IMG/VR virus record: IMGVR_UViG_3300033144_005945
Coordinates: 1 to 28,852 of that record
Length of the DNA: 28,852 bases
Strand: one strand, 5' to 3'
From: a virus
Both the position numbers and the translations under genes were made by a program. Positions within the stretch are counted from its first letter, which is position 1, and every line of letters starts with the position of its first letter. Below, piece after piece: positions 3,556 to 24,298 of the stretch. The notes beneath the pieces are model-generated. The model was not told where the DNA came from. It made no database searches and worked only from the letters and a program-made list of their open reading frames with translations.

Positions 3556-5226
3556 ATGATGACAACCGAAATTACTAAAGCAGAAAAGAATAAACGAAGC
3601 CTTCAAGTAGGCGCTGAAAAGTTTATTAATGAATATTTGAGGTGTAAGAATTCGTTTTTATATTTTTGCTCACGGTACATCAAGATTGAACAAGTAGGTG
3701 GAGATGTTGCAATGCATCCCTACGGTCCTCAAAAGAATTTAATTAATACTATACAAAATGATAACTTTGTCTTGGTGTTAAAATCAAGGCAGATTGGTAT
3801 ATCAACAATCATCCAAGCATATTGTACATGGTTAACATCATTCTATGACAATGTTGTAGTAGGTATTATTTCAAAAGATGCTGCTGAAGCTACAGACTTC
3901 GCAAGAAAAATTAGGGGTATGGTTGATAAATTACCTAAATGGATGTCACCTGGATATGATAAATATACAGAGCAATCATTCATTTTAAAGAACGGAAGTA
4001 AGGTTTATGCTTCTCCTGTTAACCCAAATGCTCCAGAAAAGACTCTTCGTGGTAAAGCTATTACATTCCTAGTAATAGATGAGGCTGCCTTCATTAAATT
4101 TATTGACGATGCATGGACTTCAATGGTACCAGCATTATCAACATCACAAATGCATGCTAGAAAAAATGATGTTCCTTATGGAACAATTGTTCTTTCAACT
4201 CCTAACAAAACAGTTGGAACAGGTAAATGGTTCTATGAAAAATATTCTAAAGCAGAAGGGAATGATGATATATTCACACCTTTTGTTATACATTGGAAAG
4301 ATGTTGAAGAACTGGCTTCTGATCCTGATTGGTATGAAACTCAGTGTCAGTTGTTTGATAACGATCCTAAAAAGATTGAACAAGAGCTTGAACTCAAATT
4401 TTTAGCTACATCTGGTTCATTCTTTGATGATGAAACAACAAGACAATTACAAGAGATAAACGAAAAGCCAGTTGAAACACAAAAGTTATTTAATGGTGAA
4501 GGATGGAGATATGCACCAGCTGAACTAGGAAGATATTATATAACAGGAGTTGATACAGCTCCAGAACATGGTGAAGATTTTTCTGCCCTATCTGTTTGGG
4601 ACTATCAAACATTAGAACAAGTATATGAATATCAAGGTAAATGTAAAGTTGAAGATTTTGTTAAAGTTGTTAAAGCTGTAATTAGTCAATACCCAGGATT
4701 AGTAGTAGTAGAATCAAACTCTTATGGAAACCAAGTTGTTGAAGCTATAAATAGTAGTGAGTATTCTGCAATGCTATATAAAGAAAAACGAGGATCTACA
4801 AAGAAATTAGTTGCTGGTTTGAGTACTAATTCAAAGACAAGACCTTTAATGATTGATGCTTTATATTCTTATGTATCTCAATTCACAGAAGGAGTTAAAT
4901 CTAAAAGGTTAATATTAGAATTGATTGGTCTAATATCAAAAACAAACGGAAGGGTTGAAGCAGACACAGGATGTCACGATGACTTAGTTTTCTCTGCTGC
5001 TCTAGCGTTTTATGTTCATAAATGGGATCCTCCAATGATGTTACAGACAGCATCAACTGCTTTAATGAGAGGAGATTTGAATGATGTTTTAAGTATGAAT
5101 GATGGGATACTTTCTCATTCACCTCAAGCAGGTATGCTGAAAAAAATTAAGAAAGAATTAGATGAAGTTGAACCAGGAACAGATATGCAATTTGTTGACA
5201 TTCTATCTATGTACCAAAATAATTAA
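3556..5226 (+). CDS. Terminase large subunit (DNA-packaging ATPase/nuclease)
   Basis: This 556-residue motor cuts concatemeric phage DNA and pumps it into the prohead. The ATPase domain has a Walker-A-like loop KSRQIGIST at 76-84, Walker B FLVIDEAAFI with D175-E176, and coupling motif LSTPN at 213-217. The C-terminal RNase H-like nuclease domain shows D333 in GVDTAPEHGEDFS, E386 in VVVESNSYG and D475-D476 in GCHDDLVFS. These are the expected three acidic clusters. The length is close to T4 gp17 and other headful-type terminases. Translation can start at ATG 3556 or the adjacent ATG 3559. No small-subunit gene is recognisable beside it. Tail genes, not head genes, follow. Confidence 0.97.
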   Translation: MMTTEITKAEKNKRSLQVGAEKFINEYLRCKNSFLYFCSRYIKIEQVGGDVAMHPYGPQKNLINTIQNDNFVLVLKSRQIGISTIIQAYCTWLTSFYDNVVVGIISKDAAEATDFARKIRGMVDKLPKWMSPGYDKYTEQSFILKNGSKVYASPVNPNAPEKTLRGKAITFLVIDEAAFIKFIDDAWTSMVPALSTSQMHARKNDVPYGTIVLSTPNKTVGTGKWFYEKYSKAEGNDDIFTPFVIHWKDVEELASDPDWYETQCQLFDNDPKKIEQELELKFLATSGSFFDDETTRQLQEINEKPVETQKLFNGEGWRYAPAELGRYYITGVDTAPEHGEDFSALSVWDYQTLEQVYEYQGKCKVEDFVKVVKAVISQYPGLVVVESNSYGNQVVEAINSSEYSAMLYKEKRGSTKKLVAGLSTNSKTRPLMIDALYSYVSQFTEGVKSKRLILELIGLISKTNGRVEADTGCHDDLVFSAALAFYVHKWDPPMMLQTASTALMRGDLNDVLSMNDGILSHSPQAGMLKKIKKELDEVEPGTDMQFVDILSMYQNN

Positions 5227-18458: not shown

Positions 18459-18935
18459 TTAACCATTCGTAATTTCATCTAACTTATTTAAAGTATCTTT
18501 CCAATTGCCTTCGAATCGTATGGCTCTATCATCTATGTATGCAACTGCAGCCAATTTCTCAGCAGTTATATTATCGTAATAAATGTCATGATCCTTAAGC
18601 CATTGTTTAACATTTTTTATAAGCTCATCTGACGATGGTTGTGAATTACTTAGAGTAGAAGCTCTTGTCGTAAATATTACTATTTCGTATCCTTGTTTAT
18701 GGAGTTCATCAATTGTTTCTTTAGCTCCCTCTATTACTTCATCATTCAGCCTTCCGTCATTCCATGATTCGTATTGGTGAATAACACCGTCAAAGTCAAT
18801 CATTATTCTTTGTTGTTCGGACGTACCCAGTTCATTAGGGTAACTTATTTTTAAAGGTCTCTTCCTGGTATGGATAGAATCCATAGCAAAAATAGATTCA
18901 TCTTGTATCTTTTTAAGATAATTCTCAATTATCAT
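18459..18935 (-). CDS. HAD-superfamily phosphatase-like protein
   Basis: A 158-residue protein. I chose ATG 18935 because GGAG lies six bases upstream; an ATG five codons earlier has no such site. After a 43-residue extension comes RIMIDFDGVIHQY with D47-x-D49 (HAD motif I: nucleophile and acid). VIFTTRAS (motif II threonine) follows, then EKLAAVAYIDDRAIRF with lysine and the DD of motifs III/IV. The cap is small, so substrates could be nucleotides or polynucleotide ends, but this is not determinable. It is the first gene of the minus-strand tail operon, under a TAGAACA motif, so it would be made late with the tube protein, which is an odd partner. Confidence 0.9.
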   Translation of the reverse strand: MIIENYLKKIQDESIFAMDSIHTRKRPLKISYPNELGTSEQQRIMIDFDGVIHQYESWNDGRLNDEVIEGAKETIDELHKQGYEIVIFTTRASTLSNSQPSSDELIKNVKQWLKDHDIYYDNITAEKLAAVAYIDDRAIRFEGNWKDTLNKLDEITNG

Positions 18936-18956
18936 ATAGACTCCATGCAATTTCTA

Positions 18957-19076: not shown

Positions 19077-19262
19077 ATGAATACACCAGAGAAAATGAAA
19101 GAGTGGGCTGAATTTTTAGAAAAGATTACTGGGATCCCTCAAATGGTTCCGTTAAACGAGGTAGGTCTTTCAATGGCTATTGCTGAATTAGTTACATTCT
19201 ATCCAGAAGAAAAGCCTTTATTAAAACAGGCATGTTCACAACTGAGGATATTACGAAAATGA
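19077..19262 (+). CDS. Small hypothetical protein, first gene of accessory operon
   Basis: A 61-residue, slightly acidic, helical protein starting behind a strong AAGGAGAGG. It has no cysteines except one near the C-terminus and no known motif. Its TGA overlaps the ATG of the metallophosphoesterase (ATGA), so the two are coupled. Confidence 0.7.
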   Translation: MNTPEKMKEWAEFLEKITGIPQMVPLNEVGLSMAIAELVTFYPEEKPLLKQACSQLRILRK

Positions 19263-19933
19263 AAATAATCGTGGTTGGTGATGTACATGCAAGGTGGCAA
19301 CATCTCAATAGATTAATCAGATCCGAATCCCCTGACATTATTCTTCAAGTGGGGGATTTCGGAATCTGGAATGATAGACCAATAGATGTCAAAAATGAAA
19401 GAGGAACCAAAATTTATTTTTGCGACGGAAATCATGAGGACTATAATATATTGAGAATGTTTAATGAAGATATGAATGAGATAGCTCCTGGTATATTTTA
19501 CATGAGAAGGGGCTCAACATTAACCCTCCCAGACGGAAGGAATGTCCTATTCATGGGAGGAGCTCAATCAACTATAATTTCTCCTGGTCAAATAACGGGA
19601 TTTGATTTATTCCCAAAGGATGAAATTATAAGCAGTGGTGATTTGGATAGATGTCCTAATCCAAAAGAAATGACTATTGATATAGTCATAAGTCATACAT
19701 GCCCTCATCATGCCCTTGGTGAAATGCAGAAATATGATATGAATAAAAAGAGAGATTGTTGTCCAATAGCATTATGGCAAATCATGGACACATTCAATCC
19801 CAAGTTGTGGTACTTTGGACATTGGCATCACTTCAAACAAGGTGAGGCAGCAGGATGTAAATGGACTGCCTTAAACTATGCAAGCTTTAGAGAAACGGAG
19901 CCAGAAGAAAAATGGTGGATAACCCTAGAATAA
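19259..19933 (+). CDS. Calcineurin-like metallophosphoesterase
   Basis: A 224-residue enzyme with the complete two-metal site of the family: GDVHA near residue 8 (D and H), GDFG near 33 (D), GNHED near 60 (N and H), HTCPHH near 140 (H) and GHWHH near 184 (two H). Such enzymes hydrolyse phosphomonoesters, phosphodiesters or nucleotides; the substrate is unknown here. I prefer ATG 19259, which overlaps the preceding TGA; an in-frame ATG at 19232 adds nine residues without a good ribosome site. It overlaps the radical SAM gene by 22 bases, so the two are tightly coupled. Confidence 0.93.
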   Translation: MKIIVVGDVHARWQHLNRLIRSESPDIILQVGDFGIWNDRPIDVKNERGTKIYFCDGNHEDYNILRMFNEDMNEIAPGIFYMRRGSTLTLPDGRNVLFMGGAQSTIISPGQITGFDLFPKDEIISSGDLDRCPNPKEMTIDIVISHTCPHHALGEMQKYDMNKKRDCCPIALWQIMDTFNPKLWYFGHWHHFKQGEAAGCKWTALNYASFRETEPEEKWWITLE

Positions 19934-20913
19934 AAATAATTCGCACAAAGAAGTACGGAATAATGTTTGACTTAGACTTAGGAATCGAAGTCTTAAAAGG
20001 ACTCAATGGAAATCCAGACCCGTTCGTTTTAAATGGTCCGAGTCTTTTGGATGTTGGTGTTATGGGGCATTGTCATAATAATTGTGCATGGTGTTATCAA
20101 GGATCTAATAAACAGGATCATATGACAATTGAAAACTTTAAAATGATTGTTGACCAATGTAAACACATGACAAATCAAATAGCATTAGGAGGTAGAGGAG
20201 ATCCAAATTTACATCCTGACTTTAAGGAGATGTTACAATATTGTAGAGATAATCAAATAGCTCCCAATTATACTACATCAGGAAATATGTTAACTGACGA
20301 ACAAATAGAAGCATCTAAGTTATGTGGTGCTGTTGCAGTATCAATGTATAATATGCCATTTACTTTTAGCGCATTAAAAAGGTTAATGGAACATAAGATA
20401 AAGACTAATATACATTTTGTCGTAACTAGTTCGACATTATCGCAAGCTATTAGTTTGATTTACGATGATAATATATGGAGAAGATTTATTGATTTAGATA
20501 ATTTAAATGCAATAATATTTTTATTATTTAAACCTGTAGGGAAGGGAGTTAAGTATAAACATCTTAGCCCTAATCTTCAAAGTATAGAACATTTTGCAAA
20601 AGCAATCCAAAACCAAAAATGTAAGTTTAAAATTGGTATGGATACTTGTATGATGAACAAAATAAGTCAGGTAAGAGAACTAACTCCAGAAGAAGAATTA
20701 ATGGGAGATACATGTGAGTCAGCAAGGATGTCTGCTTATATATCTCCTGATATGGTAATGAAACCATGTTCATTTTCATCTGATGGTAATTATGTAATAG
20801 TAACAAAAGAACAAACAATAGAACAAATCTGGAAACAGAGTAGCGAATTTGAGAAGTATAGGAAACTTTTATTAACCAAAAAGGACGAATGTCCAATATT
20901 TAAAGGAGAGTAA
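19912..20913 (+). CDS. Radical SAM enzyme with SPASM-like C-terminus
   Basis: A 333-residue enzyme. GHCHNNCAWCYQG holds C54, C58 and C61, the CX3CX2C ligands of the 4Fe-4S cluster that cleaves S-adenosylmethionine. GGRGDPNLHP (about 95-104) takes the place of the GGEP motif that holds SAM. The C-terminal part has CMMNK, then GDTCESARMSAYISPDMVMKPC and a final cysteine in DECPIF, which resembles a Twitch/SPASM auxiliary-cluster region. Members with such ends often modify peptides or proteins. It is not obviously QueE or an NrdG-type activase. It sits with a metallophosphoesterase upstream and two proteins sharing an N-terminal motif downstream. The substrate is unknown. Confidence 0.9.
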   Translation: MVDNPRIKIIRTKKYGIMFDLDLGIEVLKGLNGNPDPFVLNGPSLLDVGVMGHCHNNCAWCYQGSNKQDHMTIENFKMIVDQCKHMTNQIALGGRGDPNLHPDFKEMLQYCRDNQIAPNYTTSGNMLTDEQIEASKLCGAVAVSMYNMPFTFSALKRLMEHKIKTNIHFVVTSSTLSQAISLIYDDNIWRRFIDLDNLNAIIFLLFKPVGKGVKYKHLSPNLQSIEHFAKAIQNQKCKFKIGMDTCMMNKISQVRELTPEEELMGDTCESARMSAYISPDMVMKPCSFSSDGNYVIVTKEQTIEQIWKQSSEFEKYRKLLLTKKDECPIFKGE

Positions 20914-20915
20914 TT

Positions 20916-21221
20916 ATGGTACCCGGTTTCGTATTTTTCGTATTTTGTGTAATTGTGGTGATTGGAATGCTGTTTGTATTTAAGGGAATGCAGAATAAGT
21001 CTGGAATAAAGAACCTACAGCTGGATAATCTTCTGTCAATCATCAAAAGTAATCTCAACTATGCTGAAGTTGACGATTTTACATTTCGTCAGATTACCAG
21101 ACAAGCGTGGGCTTTACTTGAAGGAACCAATTATCCAATCACTGCTCAGAGGTCGAGCGACCAAATGGCGATGATTGATGCAATCCTCCAGGCGGGCAAG
21201 AGGCATGAAAATAAAGTCTGA
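20916..21221 (+). CDS. Small single-pass membrane protein
   Basis: A 101-residue protein starting behind GGAGAG, whose last bases overlap the radical SAM stop region. Residues 4-22 (GFVFFVFCVIVVIGMLFVF) form one membrane helix with a short outside N-terminus, followed by a soluble helical domain with no known motif. Its codons are more GC-rich than those of the neighbours. Its 3' end overlaps the next start by 17 bases. Confidence 0.75.
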   Translation: MVPGFVFFVFCVIVVIGMLFVFKGMQNKSGIKNLQLDNLLSIIKSNLNYAEVDDFTFRQITRQAWALLEGTNYPITAQRSSDQMAMIDAILQAGKRHENKV

Positions 21222-21786
21222 TTTCGTTACCAACTCATCTTCGAGTGCATTTACATTCATCTTTAAAGGCGAGGACAAGATAGATTTAATTAGATCAATT
21301 GTCCTCGCCTCAGATGTTTTTGACTTAGATTATTATCATTATGATAAATCAGAGCATCACTTTGATGCATGGGATTTAATTAGAGCAATTGATGCTATTG
21401 TGTTTAGTGTTACTGATCCAAATGACCTTTGGATTAAGCCTTCACCAATAGATATAGATGTTGCGATTACACGAGTTCAAGATGATGTTGATAGATGGAA
21501 AGAGGATATCGGAAGAGAAAGGAAAAAACCAATCAAGAATAATTCTGAATATTCAGAATCATCATTAAGGATTTATACTGAAGCATTACAAAATGATACT
21601 GAGGCTCTTAAAGGACTTAAAAGAGCTAAAATGAAAAAATTTAATAAGGTAGTTGAAATAACCGTTGGTGATAATGAAGGCTTCATCAAAGGCACTCCAT
21701 TCGCTATTGCTATGGATCAGAATAGCACTCACTTCAATGGGATACAAACAAAAGATTTAATCATTTACACGGAGGGAAGGCATTGA
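21205..21786 (+). CDS. DFVTNSSS-motif protein 1
   Basis: A 193-residue acidic protein. I prefer ATG 21205, ten codons into the longer frame, because it gives MKIKSDFVTNSSSSAFTF, which aligns with the start of the next protein. The ribosome site is weak (AAGAGG), fitting translational coupling to the upstream gene. Beyond the motif the body is unrelated to the neighbour: an Asp-rich section (DVFDLDYYHYDKSEHHFDAWD) and a helical section with KEDIGRERKKPIK. I recall similar N-termini on otherwise unrelated bacterial and phage hypothetical proteins, but cannot check this. Function unknown. Confidence 0.8.
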   Translation: MKIKSDFVTNSSSSAFTFIFKGEDKIDLIRSIVLASDVFDLDYYHYDKSEHHFDAWDLIRAIDAIVFSVTDPNDLWIKPSPIDIDVAITRVQDDVDRWKEDIGRERKKPIKNNSEYSESSLRIYTEALQNDTEALKGLKRAKMKKFNKVVEITVGDNEGFIKGTPFAIAMDQNSTHFNGIQTKDLIIYTEGRH

Positions 21787-22148
21787 AAATTAAGATGGAC
21801 TTCGTGACTAATAGTAGTTCTGCTTCTTTTATTTTGTCTATTTTAAGTCATGTAGCTTATGATGAAGAAGGATTCAAGGAGAAAGTATTAGAACCATTGA
21901 TAGCAGACTTTAAGTCAGAATATACATATTCAAATAGGAAAGTTGACTCGGGTTATCTTTTTCCTAAAGAGATAAGAAGGTTAGATGACAATCACTTTGA
22001 GATAGAAGATTGGACTTCAATGTTTAATTCTTTTGATGACATGACGGTGTTCTTTGAATACTTAATGATACAGCATTTTCTTGGATCTCTCAAAAAGGTT
22101 TATTACTGTGAGATAGAATCATTCAGAGTAGAGAGGAATCAAGGATAA
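21783..22148 (+). CDS. DFVTNSSS-motif protein 2 (TTG start)
   Basis: A 121-residue acidic protein. TTG 21783, overlapping the preceding TGA and lying behind GGAGGGAAGG, gives MKIKMDFVTNSSSASFIL. The alternative ATG at 21795 would cut off MKIK. The match to the neighbour's MKIKSDFVTNSSS decides for TTG. The rest is aromatic and acidic with no known domain and no likeness to protein 1. It is the last gene of the operon, closed by a strong terminator. Confidence 0.8.
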   Translation: MKIKMDFVTNSSSASFILSILSHVAYDEEGFKEKVLEPLIADFKSEYTYSNRKVDSGYLFPKEIRRLDDNHFEIEDWTSMFNSFDDMTVFFEYLMIQHFLGSLKKVYYCEIESFRVERNQG

Positions 22149-22149
22149 T

Positions 22150-22187
22150 AATCTTAGGGTGAAATATAACACCCTAAGATTTTTTTT
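22150..22187 (+). terminator. Rho-independent terminator after accessory operon
   Basis: AATCTTAGGGTG pairs perfectly with CACCCTAAGATT around an eight-base loop, followed by seven to eight T. It ends the operon that begins at 19077. Confidence 0.95.
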
Positions 22188-23483: not shown

Positions 23484-23816
23484 ATGGAGGTTGATGAAAA
23501 AACTAAAAAATTAAGAGTTGAGTACATGGAGTACCTGACGACAATAATCAGCAATGCTATTATGCAGTTTGCTAAAATGGGATTGTGGGGAAACCTTTAC
23601 AAGGTTATGGAAGATGCTACACATCATATGCATCTTGCTGTAACTCAAAACATGAAAGACCATGAGCAGATTACCCCTGACCATCAGAAAATTATGGACC
23701 ATGCTGTATTGGTTCGCAAGAGTATTAAGATGGATTATGATGATCTGGCGCGAGCTTTTCAGCTCCTGGAAATGGAAAAGAAAAGTGATGCTGGGGAGGG
23801 GCTCTTCATACCATGA
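23484..23816 (+). CDS. All-helical protein coupled to nucleotidyltransferase
   Basis: A 110-residue protein behind AGGAGGAGATCCG. It is helical throughout, Met/His-rich (ATHHMHLAVTQNMKDHEQ), with no cysteines. Its TGA overlaps the ATG of the nucleotidyltransferase gene. Such pairing recalls HEPN/MNT modules, but the R-x4-6-H motif of HEPN RNases is absent. A small GGGA-AATGA-TCCC hairpin precedes its ribosome site (23447-23461). Function unknown. Confidence 0.75.
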   Translation: MEVDEKTKKLRVEYMEYLTTIISNAIMQFAKMGLWGNLYKVMEDATHHMHLAVTQNMKDHEQITPDHQKIMDHAVLVRKSIKMDYDDLARAFQLLEMEKKSDAGEGLFIP

Positions 23817-24298
23817 AAATAACCAAAGACCATAATTCAAACGAGGTGCTCTTATTAACAAGAGCAAATGGCGTAGTCAAGTTGTTTAACCGAATGAAGA
23901 AGGAACTAAAAGATGATGGAAGTAAAACCTTCTTCGGTGGCAGTAGAGCAATTGGATACAACTGTGATAATTCTGATGTTGATGTATTCCTTTATTTCGA
24001 TGATCCTGATTTTGAATCAGACTTTATCGAGCTATTAGAAGGTGATGGATATGAAAAGGAAACTTCAACTGAAGCTAGTAAGCATGATGCCTGCTCTGTA
24101 TATAACTGTAATAACGTTGACATATGTTTTGTTAATGAAGAAGAAGATTTTGATGATATGAAAAAGAAAACATCTCTTCTGAAAAATGTAATAAAAGGAA
24201 ATAAAGATCTTATCGCATTATGTGTTTCGATGAACGTAAATGACACCCATGCAGAAGTATTCGCCCGGATGAGTAAAGCGTTTCTAGATTCAGAATGA
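23813..24298 (+). CDS. Minimal nucleotidyltransferase (pol-beta superfamily)
   Basis: A 161-residue protein with FFGGSRAIGYNCDNSDVDVFL: G43-S44 binds the nucleotide phosphates and D55-x-D57 bind metal. D103 in NNVDICFV is the third carboxylate. This is a complete MNT-type active site of the GS-x(9-10)-D-x-D family, which transfers a nucleotide to a protein, RNA or small molecule. Only a short helical tail follows, so the acceptor must be bound by a partner, possibly the 110-residue protein with which it is coupled by ATGA. A strong terminator follows. Confidence 0.88.
   Translation: MKITKDHNSNEVLLLTRANGVVKLFNRMKKELKDDGSKTFFGGSRAIGYNCDNSDVDVFLYFDDPDFESDFIELLEGDGYEKETSTEASKHDACSVYNCNNVDICFVNEEEDFDDMKKKTSLLKNVIKGNKDLIALCVSMNVNDTHAEVFARMSKAFLDSE

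Follow-up and report, generated by a model that had tools for sequence, protein, structure and literature searches.

The window, i.e. the whole stretch of 28,852 nucleotides that was analysed, is a viral contig (28.9 kb) from IMG/VR which encodes a T4-type terminase and contractile-tail genes. Positions 19232-22148 hold a tight run of five genes on the plus strand, leading from a metallophosphoesterase to the second of two proteins with a common N-terminal tag. The features of this region are as follows, with the evidence in brackets.

19232..19933, plus strand: metallophosphoesterase gene (Metallophos, 5.6e-14; phrog_1649)
19912..20913, plus strand: radical-SAM enzyme of 333 amino acids with a C-terminal SPASM/twitch-like part (Pfam, AF2 model, fold, family alignment)
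20916..21221, plus strand: 101-amino-acid protein with a hydrophobic N-terminal segment (open reading frame and gene overlaps)
21205..21786, plus strand: tagged protein 1, 193 amino acids, ATG start (open reading frame; conserved family)
21205..21252, plus strand: N-terminal tag of protein 1, MKIKSDFVTNSSSSAF (read from the sequence; tag alignment)
21771..21775, plus strand: GGAGG, resembling a Shine-Dalgarno site, for the TTG start of protein 2 (read from the DNA itself)
21783..22148, plus strand: tagged protein 2, 121 amino acids, TTG start (open reading frame; conserved family)
21783..21830, plus strand: N-terminal tag of protein 2, MKIKMDFVTNSSSASF (read from the sequence; tag alignment)
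22150..22187, plus strand: inverted repeat AATCTTAGGGTG / CACCCTAAGATT with a T-run, resembling an intrinsic terminator (read directly from the sequence)

The metallophosphoesterase gene overlaps the 5′ end of the radical-SAM gene and probably belongs to the same operon; as far as seen in the loci described below, it is not a recurrent partner. The gene of the 101-amino-acid protein, for which no family match above cut-off was obtained, is located between the enzyme gene and the first tagged gene in the same operon. For protein 1, the open reading frame program places the start upstream at position 21175, and all relatives begin at the MKIK encoded from position 21205. The start of protein 2 overlaps the stop codon of protein 1 (...CATTGA...), and the operon ends at its 3′ side with the terminator-like inverted repeat and T-run. 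Two further genes are found in the vicinity: a HAD-like phosphatase-type gene on the minus strand (18459-18950), which adjoins the metallophosphoesterase gene, and a small nucleotidyltransferase-like gene (23813-24298; NTP_transf_2 above the Pfam cut-off).

An earlier note on this DNA had drawn attention to the motif shared by the two adjacent, otherwise unrelated proteins. Both open reading frames are present, and their tags are identical in 12 of 16 residues (start codon left out). Eight of these 12 residues are encoded by different codons (29 of 48 nucleotides are identical) and the bodies display no similarity (BLASTP E=4.3), so that recent DNA duplication does not explain the match, as the note had argued. 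Each body has a conserved family of its own, with 7 members for protein 1 and 12 for protein 2 in the first set of loci, all of them tagged; targeted scans found the two families at 15 and 56 loci, respectively, the weakest of the 56 matching through the tag alone. The bodies are thus not homologous over their full length. Nor is the motif part of one ordinary domain; a single shared domain was considered and is ruled out by the unrelated bodies.

A search for the motif together with its neighbours, as the note had proposed, displays a phenomenon far larger than first seen. The pattern used for scanning DNA was ATG-AAR-ATH-N6-GAY-TTY-GTN-ACN-AAY-WSN-WS, and it matched at least 119 stretches of viral contigs and at least 118 stretches of bacterial or archaeal genomes, with almost no matches for reversed-pattern controls. 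The scanned loci contain at least 460 tagged open reading frames, often two to seven in tandem. When the bodies are clustered without the tag, at least 93 groups unrelated by BLAST result; among the matches listed, 51 groups have a single member. The pattern MK[IV][KR]x[DG]F[VI][TS]NSSS is found at the start of at least 93 protein families without BLAST similarity to one another, which come from phages, archaea and bacteria (Bacillota, Bacteroidota, Pseudomonadota and Desulfobacterota-like). This bears out the mention in the note of similar N-termini on unrelated hypothetical proteins. The tagged proteins comprise about 80-700 amino acids, and their bodies are mostly ordered or unrelated. Pfam, NCBIfam and PHROGs, applied to 88 bodies, provide no function for most of them, the only matches being a leucine-rich repeat (LRR) pair and scattered weak ones; phrog_7397 (unknown function) matches 26 of the 88, probably largely via the tag. 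Short-peptide tblastn and phmmer searches with a 20-residue tag query found nothing, as expected at that length.

Over about the first 16 residues the fuller consensus reads MK[IV][KR]x[DG]F[VI][TS]NSSS[STAV][SANC][FY]. In a set of 419 unique tags, conservation reaches 98-100% for D, T, N and the three S; the percentages for D, F, V, T and N are biased, as these residues are fixed by the scan pattern itself, and the bias does not extend to the third S, to the positions after it or to tags picked up solely as neighbours. The three serines are followed by S/T/A/V, S, F/Y and I/V, and conservation stops abruptly at about residue 18. The serine codons are divided between AGY and TCN. With codons varying freely over hundreds of genes, DFVTNSSS fixed and the bodies unrelated, the selection at protein level postulated by the note is well founded. 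The position of the motif is equally strict: in all loci fetched, every one of the 501 distinct cases of [DG]F[VI][TS]NSS[ST] is preceded, at a distance of exactly five codons, by an ATG, GTG or TTG, and none of them is internal. One copy in the window does use a TTG start, as the note remarked, but this is nothing special, given 26 TTG and 21 GTG starts among the 501 tags.

Relatives of the enzyme were found by means of a profile built from the radical-SAM protein of the window. The enzyme is present at 155 of 237 loci fetched by the tag (68 of 119 viral, 87 of 118 genomic; among the matches listed), many of the loci lacking it being cut by contig ends. It is nearly always encoded on the strand of the tag, mostly at a distance of one to a few genes, and among the matches listed it is the most frequent gene family at these loci. 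All 15 tag-bearing whole genomes (G001 and 14 others) contain the enzyme. For 19 tag-bearing viral records in which the fetched stretch was mostly without the enzyme, it was found in 10 of 10 records over 90 kb and in 2 of 9 shorter fragments. The enzyme is rare overall, occurring in 9 of 347 genomes of one phylum and 0 of 246 of another (centres excluded). The bare pattern is rare too: among 196 genomes of one bacterial class it was seen in just three, the centre being one of them, and all three have the enzyme.

Conversely, a tagged gene lies next to the enzyme or close by in all 13 randomly drawn enzyme genomes; enzyme genomes were drawn as five from the class of the tag genome (centre included) and nine more from its phylum (centre excluded). 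Two genomes without the exact pattern (G058 and G083) were considered as exceptions and rejected as such, since they carry D-to-G variants of the tag, MKYRTGFVTNSSS and MKIRKGFVTNSSS. Viral loci fetched by the enzyme alone contain tag genes in 47 of 79 cases, with 106 of 106 tag open reading frames on the strand of the enzyme and none for the reversed-motif control. The genomic coupling of tag and enzyme thus holds in both directions. In the remaining 32 of these 79 loci, a phage subgroup with close relatives of the enzyme, no tag was found within reach in records of up to 41 kb; the pairing is therefore not absolute in this subgroup, where it can be lost or the partner sits elsewhere. At six loci (L253, L254, L255, L266, L283 and L286), bodies like tagged ones (...IEHYLSIREST...) that have lost the tag are located just downstream of the enzyme.

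The enzyme of the window belongs to the Radical SAM superfamily (Pfam Radical_SAM PF04055, 40.5 bits versus a cut-off of 29.5). Its cluster motif CHNNCAWC is of the type CX3CX2C, and the family alignment displays C246, C268, C286 and C327 as conserved. The score for SPASM (PF13186) is below cut-off (16.5 versus 21.5 bits), with C268, C286 and C327 conserved, and a relative (L164) passes TIGR04085 (39.9 versus 27). None of the NCBIfam radical-SAM equivalogs (mycofactocin, PQQ, NirJ, viperin, HxsC and others) reaches its cut-off with five members of the family; for viperin (NF038283) the window enzyme scores 23.8 and its relatives 36.8-37.7 against a cut-off of 180 bits, and PADLOC matches the family to pVip at 1e-6 to 2e-14. 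The family includes the cysteine spacings CX3CX2C, CX7CX6C, CX7CX2C and CXCX4CX3C (L075, L053, L408, window 19912-20913 and relatives). CX7CX6C accounts for 60 of 61 long-loop cases, and CX7CX2C occurs in T4-like and Vibrio phages. At least four spacings of the radical-cluster cysteines inside one enzyme family are unusual. In one phage (L068) the enzyme open reading frame begins at about position 3795 and comprises 778 amino acids. The gene is interrupted by an intein-like insert of about 400 amino acids, located at the conserved Q-C-ALGG motif for SAM binding (ends ...ISHN|C).

The AF2 model of the window enzyme has a pLDDT of 94. The nearest solved folds are SuiB (Z 26.4 over 311 residues), SkfB (23.8), PqqE (21.0) and anSME (about 20), followed by CteB and ChlB (19) and then viperins (19). 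By this modelling, the predicted fold is closest to peptide maturases. The model displays three strands and no helices before residue 36, and the SuiB alignment begins at residue 1. In the model of tagged protein 1, residues 1-11 are disordered and the body is ordered from residue 14; fold searches with this protein gave nothing significant. No part of the protein 1 family is better conserved than the tag, and a tail predicted to be flexible yet invariant is what would be expected of a peptide handled by another protein.

The subtype of the enzyme is reflected in the tag. At loci with a long cysteine loop in the enzyme, tag position 4 is only R (98 R, 0 K), and at loci with CX3CX2C enzymes it is mostly K. 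Codon or GC bias as the sole cause is ruled out at fixed GC: below a GC content of 0.35 there are 38 K and 8 R with CX3CX2C enzymes, and 0 K and 32 R with long-loop enzymes (p=1e-14). Furthermore, pairs of tagged proteins with unrelated bodies at one locus agree at position 4 in 98% of cases, versus 50% when shuffled. This agreement is inflated by shared descent, yet it is what a common reader predicts. The covariation of K and R with the enzyme could likewise be due in part to shared descent rather than contact.

The association extends to distant and cultured cases. Distant enzymes with 25-29% identity still accompany tags. Pseudo-T-even phages (RB43, RB16, Lw1, Miro and kin) carry an enzyme with only 26-29% identity to the queries used, and two tagged genes (MKIRSGFVSNSSSSSF; gp116 and gp111 in Lw1); among 50,697 phage records, 173 match the pseudo-T-even enzyme and 175 the tagged gp239, and the hosts of the two sets are distributed in almost the same way. 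Vibrio phage D479 has an enzyme and five tagged genes, and on Agrobacterium and Rhodobacter plasmids MKIK[LM]DFVSNSSSTSF genes are located directly upstream of the enzyme. In Klebsiella phage Miro (L420, 66500-73000), the tagged gp239 and gp244 flank gp241, which has a vWA domain, the enzyme gene being about 20 kb off. The tagged genes of phages have the appearance of accessory genes.

A different setting recurs in bacteria. At about 20 genomic loci (among the matches listed), a protein of an 858-amino-acid type with NACHT-like and Avs2-like matches adjoins the pair of tag and enzyme, and at 15 of them a 134-amino-acid protein is present as well. The large protein of Agrobacterium combines a SMEK domain with NACHT. 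The recurrent set of genes comprises an Avs2-like (SMEK-)NACHT NTPase, often the 134-amino-acid protein, a tagged protein of about 138 amino acids, and the enzyme (examples: L221, 1741-4314; L182; L164; L406, 2566-5217; others). This arrangement is a candidate for an undescribed defence operon, and because of these neighbours the gene content suggests a possible role in defence or conflict for the pair of tag and enzyme in some bacteria.

The earlier note had left the choice between a sorting signal, a leader, a binding tag and a modification site, and it had not connected the radical-SAM gene to the tags. The tight association with one radical-SAM family favours a leader or binding tag combined with a modification site; sorting by itself is less favoured. 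We consider it likely that the motif is a portable N-terminal substrate tag, and that the dedicated radical-SAM enzyme, encoded two genes upstream here, modifies the tag itself. This reading is based on the two-way coupling, the register, the covariation at position 4, the predicted disorder of the tail and the peptide-maturase fold. The following account of physical binding, of tag modification and of its chemistry and purpose is inferred. Any tagged protein would bind to the enzyme by its flexible N-terminal tail, whose start MK[IV][KR]x[DG] would set the register. The 5′-deoxyadenosyl radical would then abstract hydrogen from one residue within the invariant [TS]-N-S-S-S, leading to a stable product, which may be a side-chain or backbone cross-link or, in decreasing order of preference, an oxidised serine or a D-residue. 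The diverse bodies would act as distinct effectors, which one and the same modification would activate, anchor or stabilise. In phages these would be accessory proteins; in some bacteria the effector would be a small protein of an operon with an Avs2-like STAND NTPase.

Whether this amounts to a general radical-SAM tagging code, in which a fixed N-terminal peptide can be placed on any body and its TNSSS be converted to a new residue or cross-link, appears to us an evenly balanced question. Such a code would be operated by an enzyme family with unusually variable cluster-binding loops and be common to phages, bacteria and archaea, with phages using it for sets of accessory proteins and some bacteria in Avs2-like operons; these parts stand at the same even chances.

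The enzyme may instead dock at the tag merely as a leader and modify residues elsewhere in the body, as RiPP maturases do. The fold is indeed close to the leader-dependent maturases SuiB, SkfB and ChlB, and a conserved N-terminal segment resembles a leader. Yet across at least 93 BLAST-unrelated body families there is no shared core on which the enzyme could act, the bodies are proteins of considerable size (about 80-700 amino acids), and conservation is strictest in [TS]NSSS itself, beyond the needs of a docking motif; we regard this explanation as unlikely. Slightly less probable still is that the tag serves as an address, a sorting or binding signal for another factor (compartment, chaperone, virion, protease), the enzyme being a neighbour from the same pathway. 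While the strict N-terminal position, the flexible tail and the occurrence on both phage and cellular proteins would also fit an address, among the matches listed no gene other than the enzyme accompanies tags repeatedly in phages, several bacterial phyla and archaea alike, and the enzyme's subtype predicts a residue of the tag. It appears very improbable that the enzyme makes a small molecule or radical which is loaded on a tag serine by the logic of carrier proteins or activators, the tag not being rearranged: the serine-rich exposed tail, the viperin-like nucleotide-modifying folds among the matches and the PADLOC pVip scores (1e-6 to 2e-14) speak for it, but the best-matching folds act on peptides and the viperin scores (23.8 and 36.8-37.7 versus 180 bits) are far under the NCBIfam cut-off. 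That the common start arose by chance or through copying of a gene start, as the adjacency of the two genes might suggest, is practically refuted by hundreds of independent occurrences, the different codons, the unrelated bodies and the near absence of matches for reversed-pattern controls.

Modification of the tag itself, if true, would extend radical-SAM chemistry beyond short natural-product peptides to a tag on scores of unrelated proteins. It would provide a function and an enzyme for hundreds of unannotated proteins of phages, gut and rumen bacteria and archaea, and join phage accessory genes and bacterial STAND-type operons by one chemistry. It would also offer a very short portable tag for obtaining a modified N-terminus on any protein. 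The theory is testable, since the enzyme and two tagged genes are present in coliphages that are in culture, RB43 and Lw1.

In the open-access literature searched, the strings DFVTNSSS and NSSSSSF are absent, and FVTNSSS occurs only in an unrelated paper on food peptides. Neither a description of the pair of tag and enzyme in that literature nor a family model was found; priority is not certain, because the subscription literature was outside the search. This data suggests that tag and enzyme may form an undescribed system, in which the enzyme would recognise and modify tagged proteins.

Several known systems are comparable. The His-Xaa-Ser system and other radical-SAM target peptides (Haft and Basu) also combine a conserved serine-containing motif with radical-SAM genes, but motif and enzymes differ, and the NCBIfam HxsC model scores far under its cut-off with the window enzyme (19.7 versus 267.9 bits). 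For the vWA-MoxR-FtsH conflict systems, a passage of PMC7159879 proposes that a radical-SAM enzyme modifies a peptide effector encoded by a standalone gene. The tagged genes of Miro flank a vWA protein; that passage of PMC7159879 contains neither a motif nor a phage context.

The anaerobic sulfatase-maturating enzymes (anSME) resemble the window enzyme in fold (Z about 20) and act on Ser or Cys of full-size, functionally diverse proteins. Their substrates bear a C/S-x-P/A-x-R signature. The tag consensus does not contain this signature, the candidate site is at the very N-terminus, and the bodies are not sulfatases.

The radical-SAM/SPASM maturases of RiPPs (SuiB of streptide, SkfB, CteB, ChlB, PqqE) are alike in predicted fold, in a radical-SAM core with a putative SPASM/twitch-like C-terminus and in a gene that adjoins the presumed substrate. 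In contrast to them, the model of the window enzyme displays three N-terminal strands only, with no complete RRE domain (an N-terminal winged helix) evident, several cysteine spacings occur within one family, and genes for an exporter or a leader peptidase or other protease, the former two expected for a secreted RiPP, are not recurrent at the loci. The tagged proteins do not conform to RiPP precursors either, i.e. to short peptides with a variable core and a leader that is removed: the candidate substrates are many unrelated, full-size proteins which share only the N-terminal tag.
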